From: Candidatus Desantisiibacteriota bacterium
GTDB lineage: Bacteria; JACRDZ01
Length of the DNA stretch: 10,006 bases
NCBI GenBank assembly: GCA_016209155.1
Contig: JACQWU010000261.1
Span: 1-10,006, forward strand
Direction of reading: 5' to 3'
Shown here: piece after piece, positions 1,193-10,006 of the stretch
Numbering within the stretch: the stretch's first letter is position 1
How the letters are laid out: each line of letters starts with the position of its first letter
Notes under the pieces: generated by a model
The model's database searches: none
Told to the model about the DNA's origin: nothing
Seen by the model: the letters and a program-made list of their open reading frames with translations, nothing else
Program-made: the position numbers and the translations under genes

Positions 1193-1221
1193 TTGTAAAA
1201 TAATTATTTTTCTTTTAAAAT
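1193..1221 (+). promoter_or_regulatory. promoter of the DpnII-like operon, predicted leaderless
   Basis: TTGTAA (1193-1198, four of six matches to the -35 consensus) is followed after exactly 17 nt by TAAAAT (1216-1221, five of six to the -10 consensus). Six bases then separate the -10 box from ATG 1228. Transcription normally starts about 7 nt after the -10 box, which falls on the A of that ATG. No Shine-Dalgarno sequence precedes the gene, which supports a leaderless message. The same geometry recurs before 4420, 7228 and 9031. Confidence 0.7.
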
Positions 1222-1227
1222 CAACAC

Positions 1228-2214
1228 ATGCTAAAAAAAATAAAAAATAAAAAAACAACACAAATAGCTAAAGCAGTAAATTATGATCTTTCAGCGAACC
1301 CTACAGAATTTTATATATCAGAACAAACAGAGCCATATAATAACAACAGCAAACAAAAACCATTCATCGTTTCCTACGATAATCCTGAACATTCATTGAA
1401 ACTTCTAAAAGGCGATTGCATAGAAATATTAAATCGCGCCAGAGAAAACAGCGTTGATATGATATTTGCCGATCCGCCATATTTCCTTTCAAATGGCGGC
1501 ATTACATGCCATGCCGGTAAAATGGTTTCAGTAAATAAAGGTAAGTGGGATAAATCAAAAGGAATAAAAGAAAGCCATGAATTTAACCTTAAATGGCTCG
1601 AAGCCTGCCAGCGAGTATTAAAACCTAATGGAACTATCTGGGTTTCCGGAACAACTCATATAATTTATTCAATAGGTTATGCCATGCAGGAGCTTGGATA
1701 TAAAATATTAAACGATATTATCTGGTATAAACGTAATGCCCCGCCAAATTTAGCATGCAGATATTTCACTCATTCAACTGAAATTGTTTTATGGGCGGCA
1801 AAAAATAAAGACAGCAAACACTATTTTGATTATCAATTAATGAAAAAAACAAATTACGGTAAACAAATGCGTAATTTTTGGCAATTTCAGGAAAATGAGG
1901 AAGAACAAAGACAAATTGATAATGCATGGCAAATATCTTCACCCCCTCCGGTTGAAAAACACTTTGGTAAACATCCTACACAAAAGCCTGTTGAGCTTTT
2001 AAAAAGGATAATTTTAGCTTCCACAAAAGAAAGGGATTTAGTTTTAGACCCATTTTGCGGAAGTTCAACAACCGGTGTTGCAGCAATCTCGTTGAATAGA
2101 AAATATGTTGGGATTGATAAGGAAGAAGATTATCTTGAACTTTCTAAAAAACGACTTGAAGAAGCTATAAATAAAAATGTTTTACTTGAAGTTGTGAGCA
2201 AACAAAATGTATAA
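1228..2214 (+). CDS. DpnA-like DNA adenine methyltransferase (GATC)
   Basis: This 328-aa enzyme is a site-specific DNA N6-adenine methyltransferase that uses S-adenosylmethionine. The catalytic motif DPPYFLSNGG (residues 82-91) comes first, the target-recognition region lies between, and the SAM-binding motif LDPFCGSSTTG (273-283) with KHPTQKP (248-254) comes last, which is beta-class order. Blocks such as ADPPYFLSNGGI, CRYFTHSTE, GKHPTQKP and RIILASTKE closely match what I remember of DpnA, the second methylase of the Streptococcus DpnII system. DpnA modifies GATC, including in single-stranded DNA. An N-terminal extension of about 50 residues before the core is poorly conserved. The start is the ATG placed exactly at the predicted transcription start, and there is no other in-frame ATG before the catalytic motif. 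It would protect host GATC sites from the endonuclease at 2656. The usual Dam-type partner methylase is absent. Confidence 0.92.
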   Translation: MLKKIKNKKTTQIAKAVNYDLSANPTEFYISEQTEPYNNNSKQKPFIVSYDNPEHSLKLLKGDCIEILNRARENSVDMIFADPPYFLSNGGITCHAGKMVSVNKGKWDKSKGIKESHEFNLKWLEACQRVLKPNGTIWVSGTTHIIYSIGYAMQELGYKILNDIIWYKRNAPPNLACRYFTHSTEIVLWAAKNKDSKHYFDYQLMKKTNYGKQMRNFWQFQENEEEQRQIDNAWQISSPPPVEKHFGKHPTQKPVELLKRIILASTKERDLVLDPFCGSSTTGVAAISLNRKYVGIDKEEDYLELSKKRLEEAINKNVLLEVVSKQNV

Positions 2215-2650
2215 AATGAAAAATATTTTGATTGAAAAAATAAATAAGTCATATTGGTGGCATGTACCACCTATGGATCCCCTTGCCTATCAAAAAAGGG
2301 GGAAATTTTTAGCTTCAACTTATCTTCAGGCAGAATTTTATGGGCGTCCGAATCGTTATCCGGAAAAAGTAAAAATATCAAATCCGGTTTTTGGATTTTC
2401 AGAACCTGAAATTTTAAAAATTCTTTTTGGGAAAGATGCAGAAACAAAAATATTAAAAGAAGCTATTATTAAGGATAATGTTTATAATAAAAAATGGTAT
2501 GAGGAAAGAATTAATTTAGATGCGGAAATGTTTCAGAAAGCGAAGACATTAGGATATGATGCGATTGTGCTAATTTGCAAAAGTGGTAAAAAATCTTTAA
2601 TACAAAATAGAAAACCAAGATCGATTGAGTTAAATTTGTTAAGGGTTTAA
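2207..2650 (+). CDS. unknown 147-aa protein in RM operon, possible ADP-ribosyltransferase fold
   Basis: I do not recognise a named family. The gene overlaps the methylase stop by 8 nt (ATG 2207 inside ATGTATAA; a second in-frame ATG lies at 2216) and ends 5 nt before the endonuclease, so it is translated as part of the operon. Visible landmarks are WWHVPP (17-22), FLASTYLQAEFYGRP (34-48), VKISNP (55-60), GYDAIVLI (116-123) and SIELNLL at the C-terminus (139-145). A His near the first strand, an aromatic AST..AEFYG block and a late Glu after a GYDAI strand resemble the arrangement of ADP-ribosyltransferase-like folds. If so, H19 and E141 would be candidate catalytic residues, but this is only an impression of fold. 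There is no signal peptide, transmembrane segment or helix-turn-helix. It could modify or regulate the RM enzymes, or be a passenger toxin or anti-phage effector. Confidence 0.6.
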   Translation: MYKMKNILIEKINKSYWWHVPPMDPLAYQKRGKFLASTYLQAEFYGRPNRYPEKVKISNPVFGFSEPEILKILFGKDAETKILKEAIIKDNVYNKKWYEERINLDAEMFQKAKTLGYDAIVLICKSGKKSLIQNRKPRSIELNLLRV

Positions 2651-2655
2651 GAAAT

Positions 2656-3573
2656 ATGAAATATATTAATTTTTATGGTGATATTTTAAAATGCAAAAAT
2701 CAAGATGATGTTTTTGATTACTTTATAGAACATTTGAAGCCTAGTATTTTACTTTGGTCATATTTTGTCAACTGGGAAAAGGTTTTTGAAAATACACGAA
2801 AAATTGAAATTGCACTTAATAATTTAAATTATTTGATCGGAAAAAAGAATTTTGACGATGAATTTAGATTTCTAGTTAAACAAAATCCTGAAATAGCAAA
2901 AGTTATTCCTGCTTTGGTTGTTCGCGATGGAGCTAATAGCACTAAATTTAAAATCCTAGTTGACTATAAAAAAAAAAAGCTAATCTACGATGATTATGAT
3001 TTTAGTAAAGAGCATATCAACTCAGATGATATCGAAAAATATTTAAATTTTGTAAAAGAATCCGGACTAAAAGATTTAATTATATCCCAAAAAATAAAGA
3101 ATCTTGTTGATTATATGATTGGTGTTGAAGCTGGGCTTGATAGTAATGGGAGAAAAAGTAGAAGCGGTAATTGCATGGAAGATATAGTTGATTTTTTTAT
3201 CCGAGATATGTGTGAGAGAAAAAGGTTTAAATATTTAAAAGAAGCAAATACCGATAAAATTAAAGAAGAGTTGGGATACAATGTGCCAGCAGGGAAATCT
3301 TCAAGAAGATATGATTTTATTGTGGACAATGGAAGGGAATTAATTATATTTGAAACTAATTTTTATGGTGTTGGTGGATCAAAGTTGAAATCCACAGCTG
3401 GGGAATATCGGAATTTATTTGATGTATTAGCTGGTAAATATAAATTTGTTTGGATTACTGATGGTTTTGGATGGAAATCTACATCAAGACCATTAAGGGA
3501 AACATTTGATCATAATGAATATATTTTAAGTTTAGATATGCTAGAAAAAGGTATTCTAGAATATTTTATATAA
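2656..3573 (+). CDS. DpnII-family type II restriction endonuclease (GATC)
   Basis: This 305-aa protein matches the DpnII/MboI family of type II endonucleases, which cut unmethylated GATC. Family blocks I can place are IEIALNNLNYLIG (50-62), NPEIAKVIPALV (77-88), LVDYMIGVEAGLDSNGRKSRSG (150-171), RRYDF (217-221), ELIIFETNFYGVGGSKLKSTA (228-248), FVWITDGFGW (264-273) and LRETFD (280-285). D220 with E233 and N235 fits the metal-binding core of the PD-(D/E)XK-like fold as it appears in DpnII. The length is close to that of DpnII (about 288 aa), and no inactivating change is visible. It is the last gene of the operon and starts 5 nt after the 147-aa gene, with AAGGG about 12 nt before its ATG. No controller protein gene is present. 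Repeat copy 1 begins 29 nt after the stop. Confidence 0.93.
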   Translation: MKYINFYGDILKCKNQDDVFDYFIEHLKPSILLWSYFVNWEKVFENTRKIEIALNNLNYLIGKKNFDDEFRFLVKQNPEIAKVIPALVVRDGANSTKFKILVDYKKKKLIYDDYDFSKEHINSDDIEKYLNFVKESGLKDLIISQKIKNLVDYMIGVEAGLDSNGRKSRSGNCMEDIVDFFIRDMCERKRFKYLKEANTDKIKEELGYNVPAGKSSRRYDFIVDNGRELIIFETNFYGVGGSKLKSTAGEYRNLFDVLAGKYKFVWITDGFGWKSTSRPLRETFDHNEYILSLDMLEKGILEYFI

Positions 3574-3602
3574 AAATAATATTGAGGTTTTAAAGAAAAA
3601 GC

Positions 3603-3907
3603 GTTGATTTTTACGGTGCATAACCATCAACTAAAATAATAATTAAAACAATATAAAAAATAAAATGACATTAATCCTGCCCCTCAAGTAGTTTTAAGCA
3701 GATTCTTTCATGTGTTAGGTAATAATGAAAATGGAATGTTAAATTTAAAGATGACAAATCAGGGAAAAAAATATGCCTTATGCAATGTTTCATGAATATT
3801 TTAAAGAAATTGCAAAGAATGAGACTCGTTCATTTACAGTGTTTGATAATTCAAAGTTACCGGTTGGGAATTATGGACTTTTAGAGATGTATTGCGATGA
3901 ACCCGGT
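3603..3907 (+). repeat. dispersed repeat copy 1 with start of the 148-aa gene
   Basis: This segment is repeated at 6117-6418 with scattered differences. Its first 80 bp or so are also found at 4273-4350. It opens with a possible hairpin: GTTGAT (3603-3608), a six-base bulge TTTTAC, GGT, loop GCATA, ACC, then ATCAAC (3626-3631), giving nine base pairs. An AT-rich stretch follows, then ATTAATC, CAGATTCTTTCATGTGTTAG and the first 45 codons of the gene at 3773. A five-codon ORF (MKMEC) with AGG in front lies at 3726-3743; copy 3 has MKIKC in the same place. Confidence 0.9.
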
Positions 3908-4219
3908 TGTGATTGCAGAAGAGTTTTTCTCTCCGTGATATCATCCGTAACACAACAAGTCGAAGCAGTAATATGTTTTGGCTGGGAAAGCCGCGAATTC
4001 TATGTTAAATGGGCAAGAGATGACGATCCCCATATTATCAATGAATTAAAAGGGCCTGCTTTAAATTTATGTAGTCCACAATCAAACATAGCGCCGGCAA
4101 TTCTCGATATTGTAAAAAATAATGTACTTTGTGATCAATCGTATATAAAAAGACTTCAAACTCATTATAAAATATTTAGAGAACGCATAGAAACAAAATC
4201 AAAAATCAAAAAAAAATGA
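3773..4219 (+). CDS. conserved protein of unknown function with CDxPGCDC motif
   Basis: A 148-aa cytoplasmic protein with no signal peptide. I recall the pattern (TRSFTVF, LPVGNYGLLEMYCDEPGCDC, GWESREFYVKW, DDDP, LNLCSPQS, APAIL, YIKRL..HY) from uncharacterised bacterial proteins that occur in many genomes, often in several copies, but no function is known to me. Cys41, Cys46 and Cys48 in CDEPGCDC, followed by RR, suggest a metal or redox site. The final 12 residues are very basic (KSKIKKK). AGGGA about 9 nt before the ATG serves as ribosome binding site. The gene ends with TGA. Repeat copy 1 covers its upstream region and first 45 codons, and copy 2 begins 53 nt after its stop. The first 45 codons are duplicated at 6284, so this gene lies inside a segment that has been copied locally. 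Confidence 0.75.
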   Translation: MPYAMFHEYFKEIAKNETRSFTVFDNSKLPVGNYGLLEMYCDEPGCDCRRVFLSVISSVTQQVEAVICFGWESREFYVKWARDDDPHIINELKGPALNLCSPQSNIAPAILDIVKNNVLCDQSYIKRLQTHYKIFRERIETKSKIKKK

Positions 4220-4272
4220 AGAACCCTACAGCAGAAACCGCAGGGAAAATAAAAAACGGTAAAAAGCGGGAC

Positions 4273-4350
4273 GTTGGTTCTTACGGTACATAATTATTAA
4301 CTAAAATAATAATTAAAACAATAAAAAAAACAAAATGCCATTGATCTGAC
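4273..4350 (+). repeat. dispersed repeat copy 2 (short form)
   Basis: It matches the first part of copies 1 and 3, in the same orientation, and diverges after CTGAC at 4350. The possible hairpin is GTTGGT (4273-4278), bulge TCTTAC, GGT, loop ACATA, ATT, ATTAAC (4296-4301). Relative to copy 1 both arms have changed, but every pair is kept as Watson-Crick or G-T. It lies between the stop of the 148-aa gene and the BrnT promoter. Confidence 0.88.
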
Positions 4351-4384
4351 AATTCGAACTTTTAATAAGTAAATTAAATAATTA

Positions 4385-4413
4385 TTGACAAAACATTACA
4401 ATGTAGGTATATT
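4385..4413 (+). promoter_or_regulatory. promoter of brnT/brnA, predicted leaderless
   Basis: A perfect TTGACA (4385-4390), exactly 17 nt, then TATATT (4408-4413), followed by six bases and ATG 4420. The expected transcription start coincides with the A of the ATG, and no Shine-Dalgarno sequence is present. BrnA normally represses the promoter of its own operon, so an operator would be expected across or near these boxes. Confidence 0.8.
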
Positions 4414-4419
4414 GTAAAC

Positions 4420-4710
4420 ATGCCAAACATATCATTTGATTGGGATAAGGATAAGACACTTCAAATAAACATAAACATGGTATATCCTTTGAAGAAGCTC
4501 AAACAGTATTTGCTGATGAAAATGCATTGCTTCTCCATGACCCTGACCATTCACATGAAGAAGATAGATTTATACTTTTTGGTTTAAGCTCCAATCTTCG
4601 CATGTTGGTTGTTTTGCCATTGTTATCGAAGGAATGATGAAGTAATAAGAATTATATCTGTTCGGAAGGCAACTCGTTTAGAACAGAAACAATATTGGGA
4701 AAGGCAGTAA
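4420..4710 (+). pseudogene. brnT: BrnT toxin gene with two frameshifts
   Basis: Read across three frames, this is a complete BrnT ribonuclease-like toxin. Frame one (4420-4475) gives FDWDKDKTLQINI. After one missing base, 4476-4613 gives HGISFEEAQTVFADENALLL, then HDPDHSHEEDRFILFGLSS and LRMLVV. After one extra T in the run 4612-4615, 4615-4710 gives CHCYRRNDEVIRIISVRKAT and ends WERQ, TAA. The W..DK.....KHGISFEEA start and the ISVRKATRLEQ tail, which carries the conserved basic residues, are typical. BrnT inhibits translation by cutting RNA and is neutralised by BrnA, encoded next. Both lesions are single-base indels in or beside short A or T runs, so sequencing error has to be excluded. If they are real, the toxin is dead. 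Confidence 0.88.
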
Positions 4711-4713
4711 AAC

Positions 4714-4929
4714 ATGAGAAAAGAATACGATTTTTCAAAAGCTAAAAAAAATCCTTATGCCAGTCGTCTGAAACGACAAGTTACAATCAGGCTTGATGAG
4801 GAAACAATTAAGTATTTTAAAAAACTTTCGGAAGAAGCAGAAATACCATATCAAACCCTGATTAATCTTTATTTACGTGATTGCGCCGCTTCAAGCCGTA
4901 AGCTTTCTTTGCAATGGAAAGTGGCTTAG
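4714..4929 (+). CDS. brnA: BrnA antitoxin, ribbon-helix-helix
   Basis: A 71-aa protein that matches BrnA closely: an N-terminal YDFSKAKKNPYASRLKRQ (5-22) that wraps the toxin, strand QVTIRLDE (22-29), helix TIKYFKKLSEEAEI (31-44), then PYQTLINLYLRDCA (45-58). The family forms a BrnT2-BrnA2 complex that represses its own promoter. It starts 3 nt after the BrnT stop, with AAGG at 4701-4704 as ribosome binding site, and ends at TAG. Unlike its partner it has an open, undamaged frame. It should still be transcribed from the promoter at 4385, although translation of BrnT upstream would stop early. Confidence 0.88.
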   Translation: MRKEYDFSKAKKNPYASRLKRQVTIRLDEETIKYFKKLSEEAEIPYQTLINLYLRDCAASSRKLSLQWKVA

Positions 4930-5004
4930 TAAATTAAAATGTCTAATCAATAAAACAGACGATGTATAGCTGCGTGGATTATTTCTGATCTAAAAAGGAT
5001 CCGG

Positions 5005-6111
5005 ATGTTCAATAAAATATTTGGATTAATTCTTATATTTTTATCTCTAAATATCTATATTATTGCTAATGATAAAATTCCTATCAATGAAAATAATTCT
5101 ATCCTGTCCAGTGGATATACTTTTGAAGATGTTAAAAATTTAAAAAAACGATTAAACAAATCCAGAAATATTAATTCACCTAAAATAATTCATTTTACAA
5201 CTCCCAAACATAATGTGATTACTGATAATGCATTTCAAGCTGTAAGTGGAATTGTTGAAGATCCTTCAATAGAAAACATTATTTTAATTGTTAATAAAAA
5301 TTCGCGAAATATACCTGTAAAAAATGGTTGTTTTAGTGCCGGCATAGAATTGATGTATGGGAAAAATACAATTAAAGTAATTGCGCAGGATAAACAAAAA
5401 AATATATCTGTGGACAAAATTGAAATAATATATAAAACAAATAAACCCGGGCCTAAAGTATTAATAGAATATCCTTCGAAAAATGAAACCATAGATGTTT
5501 CAAACAGTTTAATAACCAGCTTAAAAGGAACAATAGATGATTTAAATATTTCTAATGGTAAATTGATGATAAATAATATCCCCTTCAATATTAAAATAAA
5601 AAATGGAAATATTAATACTAAAATAGTTCTTTTTTCAAAAATAAGCAATTTACAAGTTCAAGTTATTAACGCGGAAGGTATTATAGGAGTGAGTGATACT
5701 ATTACAATTAAAACTTCAGAAATTAAAAAATATGATGCTATTATTATACTTAGCTGGGACACATCTTTTATAGATTTGGATTTAGTTTTAAATTTTGGGA
5801 GCGAAAAAAAACAATCTATTTCATCTAAAAATCCAAATGGTTTATCCGGAGCTAAAATTCAATCGGAAAATAATGATGGAGATGGGCTTGAGGTTATAAC
5901 CTTAAATGATGCTTCTCCCTGATTATATAGTGTTTATGTTGATTATCCTTCAGTAAATAGTAATAAATATGTAGATGCAAGTGTAACAATAATTTTTCCT
6001 GACGATTATATACACTCTACAATATTCGGTCCGAAAAAAATTAAAACAGGAGAATCCTGGGCAGTTACTTTTATAGGTATGCCCGAGAAAAGAGTTTACA
6101 GAATTGAATAA
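5005..6111 (+). pseudogene. secreted Ig-like/YfaP-like protein interrupted by TGA
   Basis: The open part (5005-5922, 305 aa) begins with a signal peptide (hydrophobic residues about 5-20, cleavage near IIA/ND). Two Ig-like beta-sandwich domains follow (about 60-143 and 150-236), each with the pattern VSGIVEDP/LKGTIDD ... VINAEG. A C-terminal domain (243 on) resembles YfaP/DUF2135: LSWDTSFIDLDLVL, NNDGDGLEVITLNDASP. The codon after P305 is TGA (5920-5922). The same frame then runs 62 more codons, LYSVYVDYP ... VTIIFPDDY ... RVYRIE, to TAA 6109-6111, and this clearly completes the domain; related proteins have PGTYTVYV here, so TGA stands where Gly is expected. The protein would be exported and may be anchored or involved in surface binding. 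The ribosome binding site is AAGGA, 5-8 nt before the ATG. It may be a pseudogene, a sequencing error or a readthrough case; I favour a recent nonsense change. Confidence 0.75.
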
Positions 6112-6116
6112 AAAAC

Positions 6117-6418
6117 GTTGGTTCTTACGGTGCATAACTATTAACTAAAATAATAACTAAAACAATATAAAAAACAAAATATCATTAATCTGACCCTTAC
6201 GTGGTTTTAGGCAGATTCTTTCATGTGTTAGGTAATAATGAAAATTAAATGTTAAATTTAAAGATGACAAATCAGGAAAAAATATGCCTTATGCAATGTT
6301 TCATGAATATTTAAAAGAAATTGCAAAGAGAGAGACTCGTTCATTTACGGTATTTGATAATTTAAAGTTAGCGGTTGGGAATTATGGGCTTTTAGAGATG
6401 TATTGCGATGAAACCGGA
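6117..6418 (+). repeat. dispersed repeat copy 3 with truncated gene start
   Basis: It matches 3603-3907 along its length. It opens 5 nt after the TAA of the secreted-protein gene with the hairpin GTTGGT (6117-6122), bulge TCTTAC, GGT, loop GCATA, ACT, ATTAAC (6140-6145). It includes the CAGATTCTTTCATGTGTTAG block and the first 45 codons of the 148-aa gene. Similarity stops near 6418, directly before the 3' end of the opposite-strand gene at 6432-6575, and this marks a recombination or insertion junction. Confidence 0.9.
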
Positions 6419-6454
6419 ACAATCAACAACTTTAATTTATTGTTATTCGCTTAA
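6284..6454 (+). pseudogene. truncated duplicate of the 148-aa Cys-motif gene
   Basis: ATG 6284 opens MPYAMFHEYLKEIAKRETRS, nearly identical to the start of the gene at 3773 (differences include F10L, N16R, S27L and P30A). The match runs through LLEMYCDE and the following Gly. It then passes into unrelated sequence read from the antisense strand of the zeta partner gene (INNFNLLLFA), ending with TAA at 6452-6454. The CDxPGCDC motif is cut in half, so Cys46 and Cys48 are gone. AGGA lies upstream, so a 56-aa chimera could be translated, but function is unlikely. Confidence 0.85.
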
Positions 6455-6575
6455 CCTTACCATTTCCCCAAATGGCAAGAGGGCGGCCACTTTTTTTGTG
6501 TTTTATTATAACTTCTTTTATAGCTTCCTTAAATGCAAGTTCTGCTTTATCATGTAATGATATTTTCTTTTTCAT
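6432..6575 (-). CDS. small partner of zeta-like toxin, putative antitoxin
   Basis: A 47-aa protein beginning MKKKISLHDKAELAFKEAIK, followed by EVIIKHKKSGRPLAIWGNGKVKRI. I recall short proteins of this pattern (an AE.A...A...VI..H...G.P...W.NGKV.RI core) encoded directly beside zeta-type kinase toxins, and they are presumed to be the antitoxin. Its ATG overlaps the TGA of the zeta-like gene as ATGA (6575-6572), the coupling usual for such pairs. The helical first half and the beta-hairpin-like second half look intact. Its last codons reach the border of repeat copy 3 (near 6418), so the final residues TIN may have been altered by that junction. There is no evidence of its own promoter; expression probably depends on the toxin transcript. 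Confidence 0.65.
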   Translation of the reverse strand: MKKKISLHDKAELAFKEAIKEVIIKHKKSGRPLAIWGNGKVKRITIN

Positions 6576-7062
6576 ATTATTACTCCAAATTTGTTTAATA
6601 TTTTATCAAATAATAATTTGTCAATAATGTCCATATCACCATTTTTTTTTGCAATTAATTTAGGTTCTATCCCGGCATTATTGAACAATATCCATGAATC
6701 TGATAAAGGTTTATAGATTTTAAAAAAATTAGAAATGCTTCTTTCGAAACGACGTATTATATCCTGAGTAGGAACATTATGTCCACCTTCAGCTACTCTG
6801 TCTTTAATTCGGGCAATTGCCAGTTCCGAAGTTGGAATCCATAAGAAAAAAATATGTAATTTGTATCCTTAATCTGTTCTATAACAATTTTCCCTGCTTT
6901 GATTGCTGCTTGCTGCGGAGAAAATGGAGATAAACCCAGAGCAATAAGATCCGCATTTACAAAATGAGGACATTTTATGTATTCAGGTAAAAATTTCATC
7001 GCAAATGTCGTTTTACCTGATCCATTTGGACCTGCGATTATATAAGCATTTTTGTTATTCAT
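6572..7062 (-). pseudogene. zeta-toxin-family kinase with internal deletion
   Basis: The first 68 or so codons from ATG 7062 carry the P-loop AGPNGSGKTTFA (residues 9-20), NADLIALGLSPFSPQQAAIKAG and KIVIEQIKD. The frame then runs wrong, giving an 89-aa ORF. From about 6868 to 6572 another frame continues the same protein: GYKLHIFFLWIPTSELAIAR, IKDRVAEGGHNVP, IIRRF, ending at TGA. The part normally between them (roughly 35 residues, containing an ETTLSG-type segment) is missing, and the two halves are out of frame. Zeta toxins phosphorylate UDP-N-acetylglucosamine and block cell-wall synthesis; without this segment and in two frames the product should be inactive. A deletion of this size cannot be a homopolymer read error. 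The gene is divergent from the Fic gene. I see no clear promoter or ribosome binding site before 7062. Confidence 0.85.
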
Positions 7063-7192
7063 TATATTTATTTAAAGTCTCAATATGACTATACTATTAG
7101 AGATTTAATTCAAAATATTGAATACTATTTATATTACCAAACACTATATATAAAGTGCAAGAGAAAAATGTCGTTCATTTTTTTATTACATC

Positions 7193-7221
7193 TTGACAAT
7201 CGTCTAATATTCGTCTATAAT
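7193..7221 (+). promoter_or_regulatory. consensus sigma70 promoter of the Fic operon, leaderless
   Basis: TTGACA (7193-7198), a 17-nt spacer and TATAAT (7216-7221) make a perfect consensus promoter. Six bases follow and then ATG 7228, so the message should begin at the start codon. No Shine-Dalgarno sequence is present. This decides the Fic start: an upstream in-frame ATG at 7168 would put the promoter inside the coding region. The rest of the divergent gap (7063-7192) is AT-rich; I see no other feature in it. Confidence 0.88.
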
Positions 7222-7227
7222 ACGCTT

Positions 7228-8289
7228 ATGAAAAATAGCACTGTTCCGTTTAATCCATTGTATTCAATAACCCCAAATCTGCTTGATTCAATAAAACGGA
7301 TATCCGCGCAAATAGCATTGTTAAACACACGGCGGTTTCCGAAAATAATCATGGCAGAATTTGAAAGGCATGCGCGGGAAATTTCTGCTTTTTCTTCCAC
7401 AAGCATTGAAGGAAATCCGCTTCCATTAACTGAAGTAAGACGAATTCTTAAAAATCTGCCGCATAATATTACAAACAGCCAAAAAGAAGTTGCGAATTAT
7501 AATGATGCGCTTGTCATGCTTAATAGGCAACTTACAACACATCAAAATTTATCACTAAATCTGCCGTTAATTCTGGAGATTCATAAAATTATTATGAAGG
7601 ATTTACTTATCAAAAGTAAGTGCGGCATATTGCGCAAAGAACCGGTATTTGTGAATGACCCGCGTTTACAAAAAACTATATATTGGCCGCCGGATCATGA
7701 GGATGTCCTTAATCTTATGGACGAACTTACCGGTTATATCAAGCAAAACGTGTCAAAGCTTGATCCTATAATACTTGCCGGTATTTTTCACAAACAGTTT
7801 GTGGTGATTCATCCCTTTATTGACGGGAATGGAAGAACTGTGCGGCTTTTGGTAAAAGTACTTTTAGCAGGGATGGGGCTGGATACCTTTAATTTGTTCA
7901 GTTTTGAGAATTATTATAACAGAAATGTAACTCGCTATTTTCAAAATGTCGGGGTAAAAGGGAATTATTACGATATTGCAAATACTCTGGATTTCACAGC
8001 ATGGCTGGAATATTTTGCCGAAGGGATTTTAGACGAACTATATAGAATCTCGAAGGAGCTCGATATTGCTGTTATTGAACCATCAACCGAGCTGAAAGAA
8101 TATCATAAAGCCATGCTTGCGTATATTGACAAAAAAGGATTTATTACAGACAGGGAGTATACCCTGGTTACCAGCCGTGCCAGACCAACCCGGGCACTCG
8201 ATTTTAATAAAATGATAACTCTGGGATATATTGAACGCCTTGGCAAAGGGAAGGCAACCTACTATAAGCTTAAAAAAGATAAAGGATAA
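7228..8289 (+). CDS. Fic family AMPylase, class II, with C-terminal winged helix
   Basis: This 353-aa protein is a Fic-domain enzyme, a family that usually transfers AMP from ATP to hydroxyl side chains of target proteins. The catalytic motif HPFIDGNGRT lies at residues 195-204, with H195 as catalytic base and R203 for phosphate binding. The self-inhibitory helix motif SSTSIEGN (56-63, with E61 as the blocking Glu) lies N-terminal to the Fic core, which makes it class II. Substrate-flap residues probably lie around PVFVNDPRLQKTIYWPP (139-155). The C-terminal 60 residues (EYHKAMLAYIDKKGFIT ... LDFNKMITLGYIERLGKGKATYY) form a winged helix-turn-helix, common in such Fic proteins. All key residues are present, so the enzyme looks functional and auto-inhibited. 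Its target is unknown. It shares a transcript with the methyltransferase 3 nt downstream. Confidence 0.93.
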   Translation: MKNSTVPFNPLYSITPNLLDSIKRISAQIALLNTRRFPKIIMAEFERHAREISAFSSTSIEGNPLPLTEVRRILKNLPHNITNSQKEVANYNDALVMLNRQLTTHQNLSLNLPLILEIHKIIMKDLLIKSKCGILRKEPVFVNDPRLQKTIYWPPDHEDVLNLMDELTGYIKQNVSKLDPIILAGIFHKQFVVIHPFIDGNGRTVRLLVKVLLAGMGLDTFNLFSFENYYNRNVTRYFQNVGVKGNYYDIANTLDFTAWLEYFAEGILDELYRISKELDIAVIEPSTELKEYHKAMLAYIDKKGFITDREYTLVTSRARPTRALDFNKMITLGYIERLGKGKATYYKLKKDKG

Positions 8290-8292
8290 ATT

Positions 8293-8919
8293 ATGAAATC
8301 GAACAGTAAGCATTGGGATACAATATTTTCTAATACAGAGGATTCAAAATTAGGGTGGTATGAAAAAAACGCATCACAAACATTTGAATTATTAAATCAA
8401 ATTCCTGATTGGAAGAAGTCTACAATATTTTTACCCGGTGCCGGAACTTCAGTTTTGATAGATGAGCTTTTGTCAGCGGGTGCAAAATTAGTTCTTAATG
8501 ATATTAGTATTGAGGCTCTAAACAAGGTTAAAGACAGGTTATCTGAAAAGAGTGAAAAAATTGTCTGGCTTTGTCAGGATATATCACAACCGGTAAAAAG
8601 TACATTGCCGGGGGTTGATATTTGGATTGATAGAGCGGTTTTGCATTTTTTAACTGATGAAGATGATATCGGCGGATATTTTGAAAATGTAAAATCAATA
8701 TTAAAAACAGGCGGCTATGCAGTATTTGCGGAATTTTCAAAAACAGGAGCGCCAAAATGCGCAGGGCTGACTCTTCACAGGTATTCAATAGAAGAATTAT
8801 CAGAAAAACTAGGATCGTCATTCAAACTTATTGTACATTTTGAATATACATACACAAATCCGAGTGGTGGCCCAAGGCCGTACATTTATGCTTTATTTAA
8901 AAAAGAATCGCAGAAGTAG
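8293..8919 (+). CDS. class I SAM-dependent methyltransferase (TPMT-like)
   Basis: A 208-aa small-molecule-type methyltransferase. HWDTIF and GWYEK (residues 7-24) form the N-terminal cap seen in thiopurine- or tellurite-methyltransferase-like enzymes. IFLPGAGTSVLIDELL (45-60) is the SAM-binding loop, D70 in LVLNDIS the likely ribose ligand, DIWIDRAVLHFL (109-120) motif IV, and LKTGGYAVFAEFS (137-149) the following strand. The C-terminal TYTNPSGGPRPYIYALFKK closes the sheet. The substrate cannot be read from the sequence. It begins 3 nt after the Fic stop, with AAAGGA about 7 nt before the ATG, so it is coupled to Fic and transcribed from the promoter at 7193. It is followed by a hairpin terminator. 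The pairing with Fic may only reflect shared transcription. Confidence 0.85.
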   Translation: MKSNSKHWDTIFSNTEDSKLGWYEKNASQTFELLNQIPDWKKSTIFLPGAGTSVLIDELLSAGAKLVLNDISIEALNKVKDRLSEKSEKIVWLCQDISQPVKSTLPGVDIWIDRAVLHFLTDEDDIGGYFENVKSILKTGGYAVFAEFSKTGAPKCAGLTLHRYSIEELSEKLGSSFKLIVHFEYTYTNPSGGPRPYIYALFKKESQK

Positions 8920-8921
8920 CG

Positions 8922-8944
8922 GGCGAATTACGATTCGCCATTTT
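8922..8944 (+). terminator. intrinsic terminator-like hairpin after the Fic operon
   Basis: GGCGAAT (8922-8928), loop TACG and ATTCGCC (8933-8939) form a perfect 7-bp stem with a tetraloop, followed by ATTTT. The T-tract is short, so termination may be partial. It begins 2 nt after the methyltransferase TAG and separates the operon from the next promoter. Confidence 0.75.
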
Positions 8945-8994
8945 GATTAATATAAAATAGCACACACCCGGATGCTGAGGTTGTTGAGGTTTAC

Positions 8995-9023
8995 TTGACA
9001 GGTTTCTATAATCATAGTATCTT
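8995..9023 (+). promoter_or_regulatory. promoter of the TIGR03790-family gene, predicted leaderless
   Basis: A perfect TTGACA (8995-9000), 17 nt, then TATCTT (9018-9023, four of six). Seven bases separate it from ATG 9031, so the transcript would begin at or one base before the start codon. There is no useful Shine-Dalgarno sequence; GGA at 9025-9027 is too close to the ATG. Confidence 0.7.
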
Positions 9024-9030
9024 TGGAATT

Positions 9031-10006
9031 ATGCTGACATGGATATTTTATAAATTATATAAAAAATTATATTTAGTACAACTCTTTATTTTTTTACTGA
9101 TTACTATTTTGGGAATTCAAAGCGCCTCGGCGCTGGTACCGGAAGATATTCTGGTGGTTTATAACCAAAATCAATCCGCAAGCTTTGATGTGGCTAAGTA
9201 TTATATTAGTAAAAGAAAGGTACCTGCCGGCAATCTTTTGGGTCTTAATATTCCTGATTCTGAATATATTTCCTGCGAAGAATTTGAAAAGCATTTACCG
9301 ATTATTCAGAAAGCGGTGAGTGCTTTAAAAAAAAATAATCATAATCCGGTAATTCTCCTTGTGTATGGTATTCCTATAAAAATCGGACCTCTCACTATAA
9401 AAAGAAATAACCAGCAGAAAGAACTGATAGAACAAAAAATTAAGGAACAAAAATATCTTGTAGCAAGGCTGACAAATCAACTTAACAAATTGATGGGGAT
9501 ATCCTTAATTATTCCCGATAGCTTAAATGAAACTGACCCAACAGATAAAAGTTCAGCGGCTCTTGACAGTGAACTGACTCTTTTGTTTGCTGAATCCTAT
9601 TCAAAAGCCAAATGGCTGCCAAATCCCTTCTTAAAACAATTTGATAATTTCTTAGGAATAGATCATATACGTGAAACTACAATTAAAGTCTGCCGATTGG
9701 ATGCATCCACACCGCAGTTGTCTAAACGGATAGTTGATGACGCTATCTGGACAGAAAATAACGGGTTAAAAGGCACTTTTTATATTGATGCACGCGGTCT
9801 CAGTACAGAAAAAAAGGAAGATGCTTATGGTCAATATGACGAGCACTTACGAAAACTTTATGATTTAATTAAGAAAAAAAGTTTAATACCTGTAGTCCTT
9901 GATAACAAACCGGCGCTGTTTCCTGAAAATTCCTGTCCGGATGCGGCTCTTTATTGCGGCTGGTATTCATTGGGCAAATATATAGATTCTTTTAAATGGC
10001 AAAGAG
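9031..10006 (+). CDS. TIGR03790-family secreted protein, 5' part
   Basis: The gene runs off the right edge; 325 codons are visible. A signal peptide (basic residues 8-12, hydrophobic 13-30, likely cleavage after SASA at 34) precedes the family start PEDILVVYNQNQSASFDVAKYYISKR (37-62) and VPAGNLLGL (64-72). LLVYGIPIKIG (109-119), SSAALDSELTLL (174-185) and WLPNPF (195-200) follow, with FYIDARGL further on and PDAALYCGWYS near the edge. These match the TIGR03790 family, found in many environmental bacteria, whose biochemical role is not known to me. A charged, helix-prone segment (about 124-155, QQKELIEQKIKEQKY...) could be a coiled-coil insert. It is exported, so it acts in the envelope or outside the cell. 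It has its own promoter and no visible link to the defence genes. Confidence 0.85.
   Translation, partial: MLTWIFYKLYKKLYLVQLFIFLLITILGIQSASALVPEDILVVYNQNQSASFDVAKYYISKRKVPAGNLLGLNIPDSEYISCEEFEKHLPIIQKAVSALKKNNHNPVILLVYGIPIKIGPLTIKRNNQQKELIEQKIKEQKYLVARLTNQLNKLMGISLIIPDSLNETDPTDKSSAALDSELTLLFAESYSKAKWLPNPFLKQFDNFLGIDHIRETTIKVCRLDASTPQLSKRIVDDAIWTENNGLKGTFYIDARGLSTEKKEDAYGQYDEHLRKLYDLIKKKSLIPVVLDNKPALFPENSCPDAALYCGWYSLGKYIDSFKWQR

Follow-up and report, generated by a model that had tools for sequence, protein, structure and literature searches.

We consider it likely that the genome carrying the 10,006-nt stretch of DNA analysed here (the window) uses Shine–Dalgarno (SD) sequences for most purposes and holds a small class of leaderless genes, and that, for the toxin–antitoxin (TA) operon brnTA, the layout behind this class is a property of a recurring module carried between hosts. 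In this layout, the -10 box of a sigma70-type promoter ends 6 nt before the ATG of the toxin gene brnT (gap 6), and the same arrangement was found again at brnT genes with unrelated upstream DNA.

A sequence-only reading had described sigma70-type boxes with 17-nt spacers immediately before four ATG codons of the window, at 1228, 4420, 7228 and 9031. Indeed, direct reading and a scan recovered all four box pairs, with spacers of 17 nt at each of the four sites and -10-to-ATG gaps of 6, 6, 6 and 7 nt, and none of the four is preceded by an SD motif (GGAG, GAGG, AGGA or AAGG in the 22 nt before each ATG). The motif is present, as had also been stated, before 618, 1019, 4714 and 8293, strong at 1019 (AAGGAGG) and weak at 4714 (AAGG only). 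The promoters, scored out of 12, and the genes are as follows.

1193..1230, + strand: TTGTAA (1193-1198), TAAAAT (1216-1221) and ATG (1228), before the methyltransferase gene; 9/12
1228..2214, + strand: N6/N4 DNA methyltransferase of a DpnII-type restriction-modification set (Pfam PF01555, E 5e-65)
2207..2650, + strand: 147-aa ORF between methyltransferase and endonuclease, without a family match
2656..3573, + strand: DpnII-type restriction endonuclease (Pfam PF04556, E 1e-87)
4385..4422, + strand: brnT promoter, TTGACA (4385-4390), TATATT (4408-4413) and ATG (4420); 11/12
4420..4710, + strand: brnT toxin gene, broken (PF04365 in two pieces, 4458-4616 and 4603-4683)
4714..4929, + strand: brnA antitoxin gene, following brnT in the operon and preceded by a weak SD (PF14384, E 6e-9, 36.6 bits against a cut-off of 26.1)
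7193..7230, + strand: Fic promoter, TTGACA (7193-7198), TATAAT (7216-7221) and ATG (7228); 12/12, full consensus
7228..8289, + strand: Fic/DOC family protein (PF02661, E 1e-19)
8984..9012, + strand: competing promoter TTGAGG-17-TATAAT ahead of 9031; 10/12, predicted leader of about 12 nt
8995..9033, + strand: promoter-like TTGACA (8995-9000), TATCTT (9018-9023) and ATG (9031); 10/12
9031..10006, + strand: TIGR03790 family protein (NCBIfam TIGR03790, E 4e-47), continuing past the window end

In the scan, the top plus-strand promoter matches of the window were those at 7193 (12/12) and then 4385 (11/12), while the score of the site at 1193 (9/12) is common to about 40 other sites in this AT-rich DNA. 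When the local 100 bp were shuffled with dinucleotides preserved, the chance of an equal promoter at a gap of 5–8 nt was 0.011 for 1228, 0.0008 for 4420, 0/5000 for 7228 and 0.0018 for 9031. Placement by chance is thus unlikely for 4420, 7228 and 9031 (P ≤0.002) and marginal for 1228. Over the whole window, promoter-like sites were not in excess (54 found, 53.5 expected from shuffles), and since the four sites were picked for looking alike, no independent evidence comes from counting sites inside the window. The housekeeping RNA polymerase usually initiates about 7 nt past the -10 box, so that gaps of 6–7 nt put the predicted first base of the transcript at the A of the ATG or beside it. Judged from their sequence, the four sites are probably for the most part real housekeeping-sigma (sigma70-type) promoters with mRNAs predicted to be leaderless; this prediction, already made in the earlier reading, is reasonable for at least 4420 and 7228, but the site at 1228 is weak and that at 9031 ambiguous.

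The brnTA operon of the window resembles known BrnT/BrnA type II systems in that both genes are Pfam-matched, with the toxin first and the antitoxin second, and differs from intact ones in that brnT is frameshifted. A profile search placed PF04365 above cut-off at 4458-4616, and three-frame translation revealed two compensating frameshifts within 4420-4710, by which the frame is left and then regained; this copy is a pseudogene or an assembly error. The neighbourhood also includes an SD-led small ORF (1019) lying 86 nt upstream of 1228, and further upstream (175-920), by eye, a fragment resembling HigA and a small protein resembling CopG. Taken together by eye, the restriction-modification set, brnTA, Fic and these upstream pieces suggest a toxin–antitoxin/defence or addiction island. 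A truncated P-loop ORF on the minus strand (6793-7062) is zeta-type toxin kinase-like, with weak family matches. A stretch of 317 bp occurs twice (3590-3906 and 6104-6417, 90.5% identity) and once more in part, at about 4260/4271-4350. It holds the small inverted repeat GTTGAT...ATCAAC, together with ORF 3773 in truncated form; an assignment of the three copies as integron attC sites was rejected, because the inverted repeat GTT...AAC is the reverse of the attC orientation.

We then examined the host MAG (3.08 Mb, 79% complete, 33% G+C) through a 1.22-Mb sample (40% of the MAG), in which 1130 genes and their start positions were called by a simple purpose-made gene caller. As a result, an SD-like motif was found ahead of 53% of the 1001 best starts; in the first 0.72-Mb subset, the motif preceded 46% of starts versus 8.8% of internal ATGs. 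In mean composition, SD-led starts peaked in G between -12 and -8, as in textbook examples, and SD-less starts had no -10 signal. The 16S rRNAs of two same-phylum genomes end in CACCTCCT, with the CCTCCT anti-SD kept; no 16S gene was found in the MAG itself. The SD frequency, the textbook spacing and the anti-SD in the phylum indicate that the lineage is normally SD-using.

Promoter gaps were scored at 215 SD-less ATG starts separated by over 20 nt from any gene upstream. Ten of these carried a gap-6 promoter (9 without the window), versus a shuffle mean of 1.4 and a maximum of 7 in 100 shuffles; the neighbouring gaps of 3–5 and 7–11 nt had 0–3 promoters each, and the gap-6 promoter was seen at none of 325 SD-led starts. 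The gap-6 share is about 2% of non-internal ATG starts, a figure that weaker -10 boxes would lift somewhat, where a leaderless-rich lineage would have about 20% or more of its genes led by a -10 box. The genome scan that had been proposed for the four promoters thus returned a real gap-6 peak, but one confined to some 2% of such starts, and the suggestion of a whole-genome habit of fusing promoter and start codon fails against the SD frequency and the anti-SD. Leaderless-like starts are a small, ordinary minority class in an otherwise ordinary SD-using genome. In a relative, full-consensus promoters are fused to both ATGs of a divergent pair (L191/L194, G001:C60:31034-31263) that encodes a LexA-like protein (gap 7) and a MazE-like antitoxin (gap 6).

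The brnTA operon offered a comparison across hosts. The window copy shares 86% DNA identity over 577 nt with that of the same-phylum genome G003, in which the brnT match is unbroken. Elsewhere in G003 (G003:C59:770-818), an 80% match covers window positions 4374-4422 only and stops exactly at the ATG; from its sequence, it is perhaps a copy of the brnT promoter, possibly heading another gene. TTGACA-N17-TATAAT-N6-ATG was seen at brnT in IMG/VR viral-contig relatives of BrnA, and we assembled 70 aligned BrnT loci together with plasmid and prophage loci. Removal of upstream regions more than 75% identical left 59 brnT regions (viral contigs, plasmids and one prophage), whose starts were set independently of any promoter, by annotation for the plasmids and the prophage and as the nearest ATG before the FEWD motif for viral contigs. 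With a promoter defined as a TTGACA-like box, 16–18 nt and TA...T, with at most two mismatches per box, 18 of the 59 dissimilar regions had a sigma70-type promoter at gap 6, and each of the other gaps between 3 and 30 nt had 0–2. Shuffled regions gave a mean of 0.8 and a maximum of 5 at gap 6, with the -35 box treated more laxly than in the real count. The window brnT has the same layout (TTGACA-like, 16–18 nt, TA...T, 6 nt, ATG), and an SD was present at 0 of the 18 gap-6 loci. Both AT-rich and GC-rich loci are among them, with unrelated spacers, with Agathobacter (L281) among the named hosts; because spacers and operators are so different among them, common descent of one DNA copy is not the explanation.

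The second ORF, brnA, served as a negative control, and indeed the gap-6 promoter was found at 0 of 54 brnA starts. At the same loci, an SD precedes 47 of 54 brnA genes versus 11 of 54 brnT genes. The layout occurs in about one third of the sampled brnT loci only; some others have an SD or promoters at other gaps. In its strict form it is absent from most of the plasmid copies of Proteobacteria and cyanobacteria (L282-L291, L297), so that it is not a universal property of brnT. At least for 4420, the geometry tracks the gene family (brnT) and not the lineage. Among the papers searched, we came across none that describes brnT as leaderless; two of them mention both BrnT and leaderless.

For the other gap-6 candidates, relatives were less informative. 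Distant Fic relatives (26–33% identity) do not share the gap-6 layout, and several have an SD. The DpnII-type methyltransferase had no relatives among the viral contigs; on plasmids, the related genes are internal ones whose starts allow no comparison, and a distant plasmid methyltransferase (L300) showed no such layout. The LlaDCHI operon of pSRQ700 (L298) has TATAAT-6-ATG at its first methylase, in line with the dpnII operon of S. pneumoniae, for which Sabelnikov in 1995 is said to have described a leaderless transcript. A leaderless reading of the restriction set and Fic is possible but finds no backing in these relatives. Another gap-6 gene of the genome sample, L004, has a promoter nearly shared with G003 (36 of 38 nt) and is by eye possibly a RelE-like toxin, without a family or structure match; neither L004 nor the gap-6 gene L058 had relatives in viral contigs.

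Several promoters contain repeats. The spacer of the 1193 promoter includes a 14-nt perfect palindrome, AAAATAATTATTTT (1197-1210). At brnT, an inverted repeat, TTACAATGTA (4396-4405) and TATATTGTAA (4408-4417), lies over the -10 box (P 0.04, shuffles), and at Fic, a direct repeat TCGTCTA (7200-7206 and 7211-7217) with an 11-nt period runs into the -10 box (P 0.02, shuffles). In the shuffles, such operator-like repeats reached significance at some promoters only, and at many others no significant ones were found. Related viral brnT loci (L245, L247, L253-L259) share a long conserved ATATGGCT palindrome in their upstream regions, and none of these has a clear sigma70 promoter at gap 6.

Could the geometry be chance in AT-rich DNA, singled out by a reader? 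The number of promoter-like sites in the window equals the shuffle mean, the sites were chosen after looking, and 1193 reaches only 9/12. Nevertheless, 4385 and 7193 are the best plus-strand matches, with local shuffle probabilities of 0.0008 and <0.0002, and the 4420 layout was found again in unrelated brnT loci, so that we regard chance as improbable. Somewhat less remote, although still rather unlikely, is the reading that the promoters are real and the transcripts carry short leaders or come from other upstream promoters, with A-rich or S1-type initiation. The promoter at 8984, which scores as well as the one adjoining 9031, would fit a short leader, and the SD-led 1019 ORF, 86 nt before 1228, would allow read-through from upstream, yet this reading does not account for the sharpness of the gap-6 peak, whether among brnT loci or genome-wide.

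A habit of the whole genome or lineage, as in Deinococcus or Actinobacteria, is largely refuted and in our view highly improbable. The gap-6 peak is genuine, and perfect-consensus promoters near ATGs have gaps of 6–7 nt in 12 of 22 cases in four same-phylum genomes versus 16 of 65 in other phyla (60 genomes; the numbers are small). Against this stand the SD motifs, in textbook spacing, at more than half of the starts, the SD-less starts without a mean -10 signal, a gap-6 share near 2% and the intact anti-SD of the phylum. That the leaderless starts of this genome belong only to imported genes, of the TA, restriction and mobile kinds, is likewise doubtful. Such genes are among the candidates (brnT, Fic, the DpnII methyltransferase, an AbiEi-like antitoxin and DUF4143 ATPases, as well as the MazE-like antitoxin of the relative), but so are murJ, gltX and bioB, and outside the window a defence-gene link was seen for 3 of 10 gap-6 starts versus 2 of 20 random controls, which is not significant. 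We retain, as likely, the small leaderless class in an SD-using genome, with the brnTA layout as a property of the module.

Leaderless genes are widespread across many phyla at low levels, with predicted shares of about 39% in Deinococcus-Thermus, about 19% in Actinobacteria and 4.2% on average in Firmicutes (Zheng et al. 2011, PMC3160421). The gap-6 genes resemble the TA-led genes of that study, with TANNNT some 12 nt ahead of the start codon and no SD, but at only about 2% of the non-internal ATG starts their share is far lower than in Deinococcus-Thermus (39%) or Actinobacteria (19%). Another likeness is S. pneumoniae D39, an SD-using genome with a leaderless minority, in which 9% of operons are leaderless and efficiently translated (PMC6212727); these starts were mapped, whereas ours are predicted. 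Leaderless initiation is also known for the paaR2 TA regulator of E. coli O157 (PMC8630535) and for C.PvuII, where the transcript of the first gene begins with its initiator codon (PMC2997769). Unlike in the C.PvuII and dpnII operons, the first gene of the restriction set in the window is only the second-type methylase, and its promoter is weaker. In M. tuberculosis, leaderless mRNAs are over-represented among TA modules: of the 37 TA pairs whose primary start has been mapped, 32 are leaderless (Cortes et al. 2013, PMC3898074), as is predicted here for the first gene of brnTA. However, M. tuberculosis belongs to a lineage with a quarter of its genes leaderless, while brnTA occurs in SD-using hosts of several phyla, and in brnTA only the first gene, the toxin, is leaderless-like and the antitoxin is SD-led. 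Leaderless TA operons are known already; what appears to be new, on the evidence of these sequences, is one family predicted to be so across SD-using hosts, in an asymmetric operon.

In the mechanism that we propose, RNA polymerase would initiate at the ATG of brnT, and the toxin BrnT would be translated by leaderless initiation, with ribosomes on the bare AUG, while the antitoxin gene brnA, second in the operon, would be translated via its own SD. BrnA or the toxin–antitoxin complex would probably repress at the repeats over the -10 box and start codon. With initiation leaderless for the toxin and SD-led for the antitoxin, the toxin would stay low and the antitoxin in excess despite the toxin gene coming first. 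We put forward only tentatively, as somewhat less probable than its opposite, that this translational asymmetry, a leaderless toxin fused to its promoter/operator and an SD-led antitoxin, is conserved in brnTA across several phyla.

A vague claim about a lineage thus becomes a concrete one about a single TA family in hosts that are otherwise SD-using. If true, a leaderless toxin with an SD-led antitoxin would be a simple route to antitoxin excess and an answer to the dosage problem that a toxin-first gene order creates. Toxin translation would then rise under stress with a shift to leaderless-favouring (70S) initiation, and TA activation would be tied to conditions that alter the mode of initiation.
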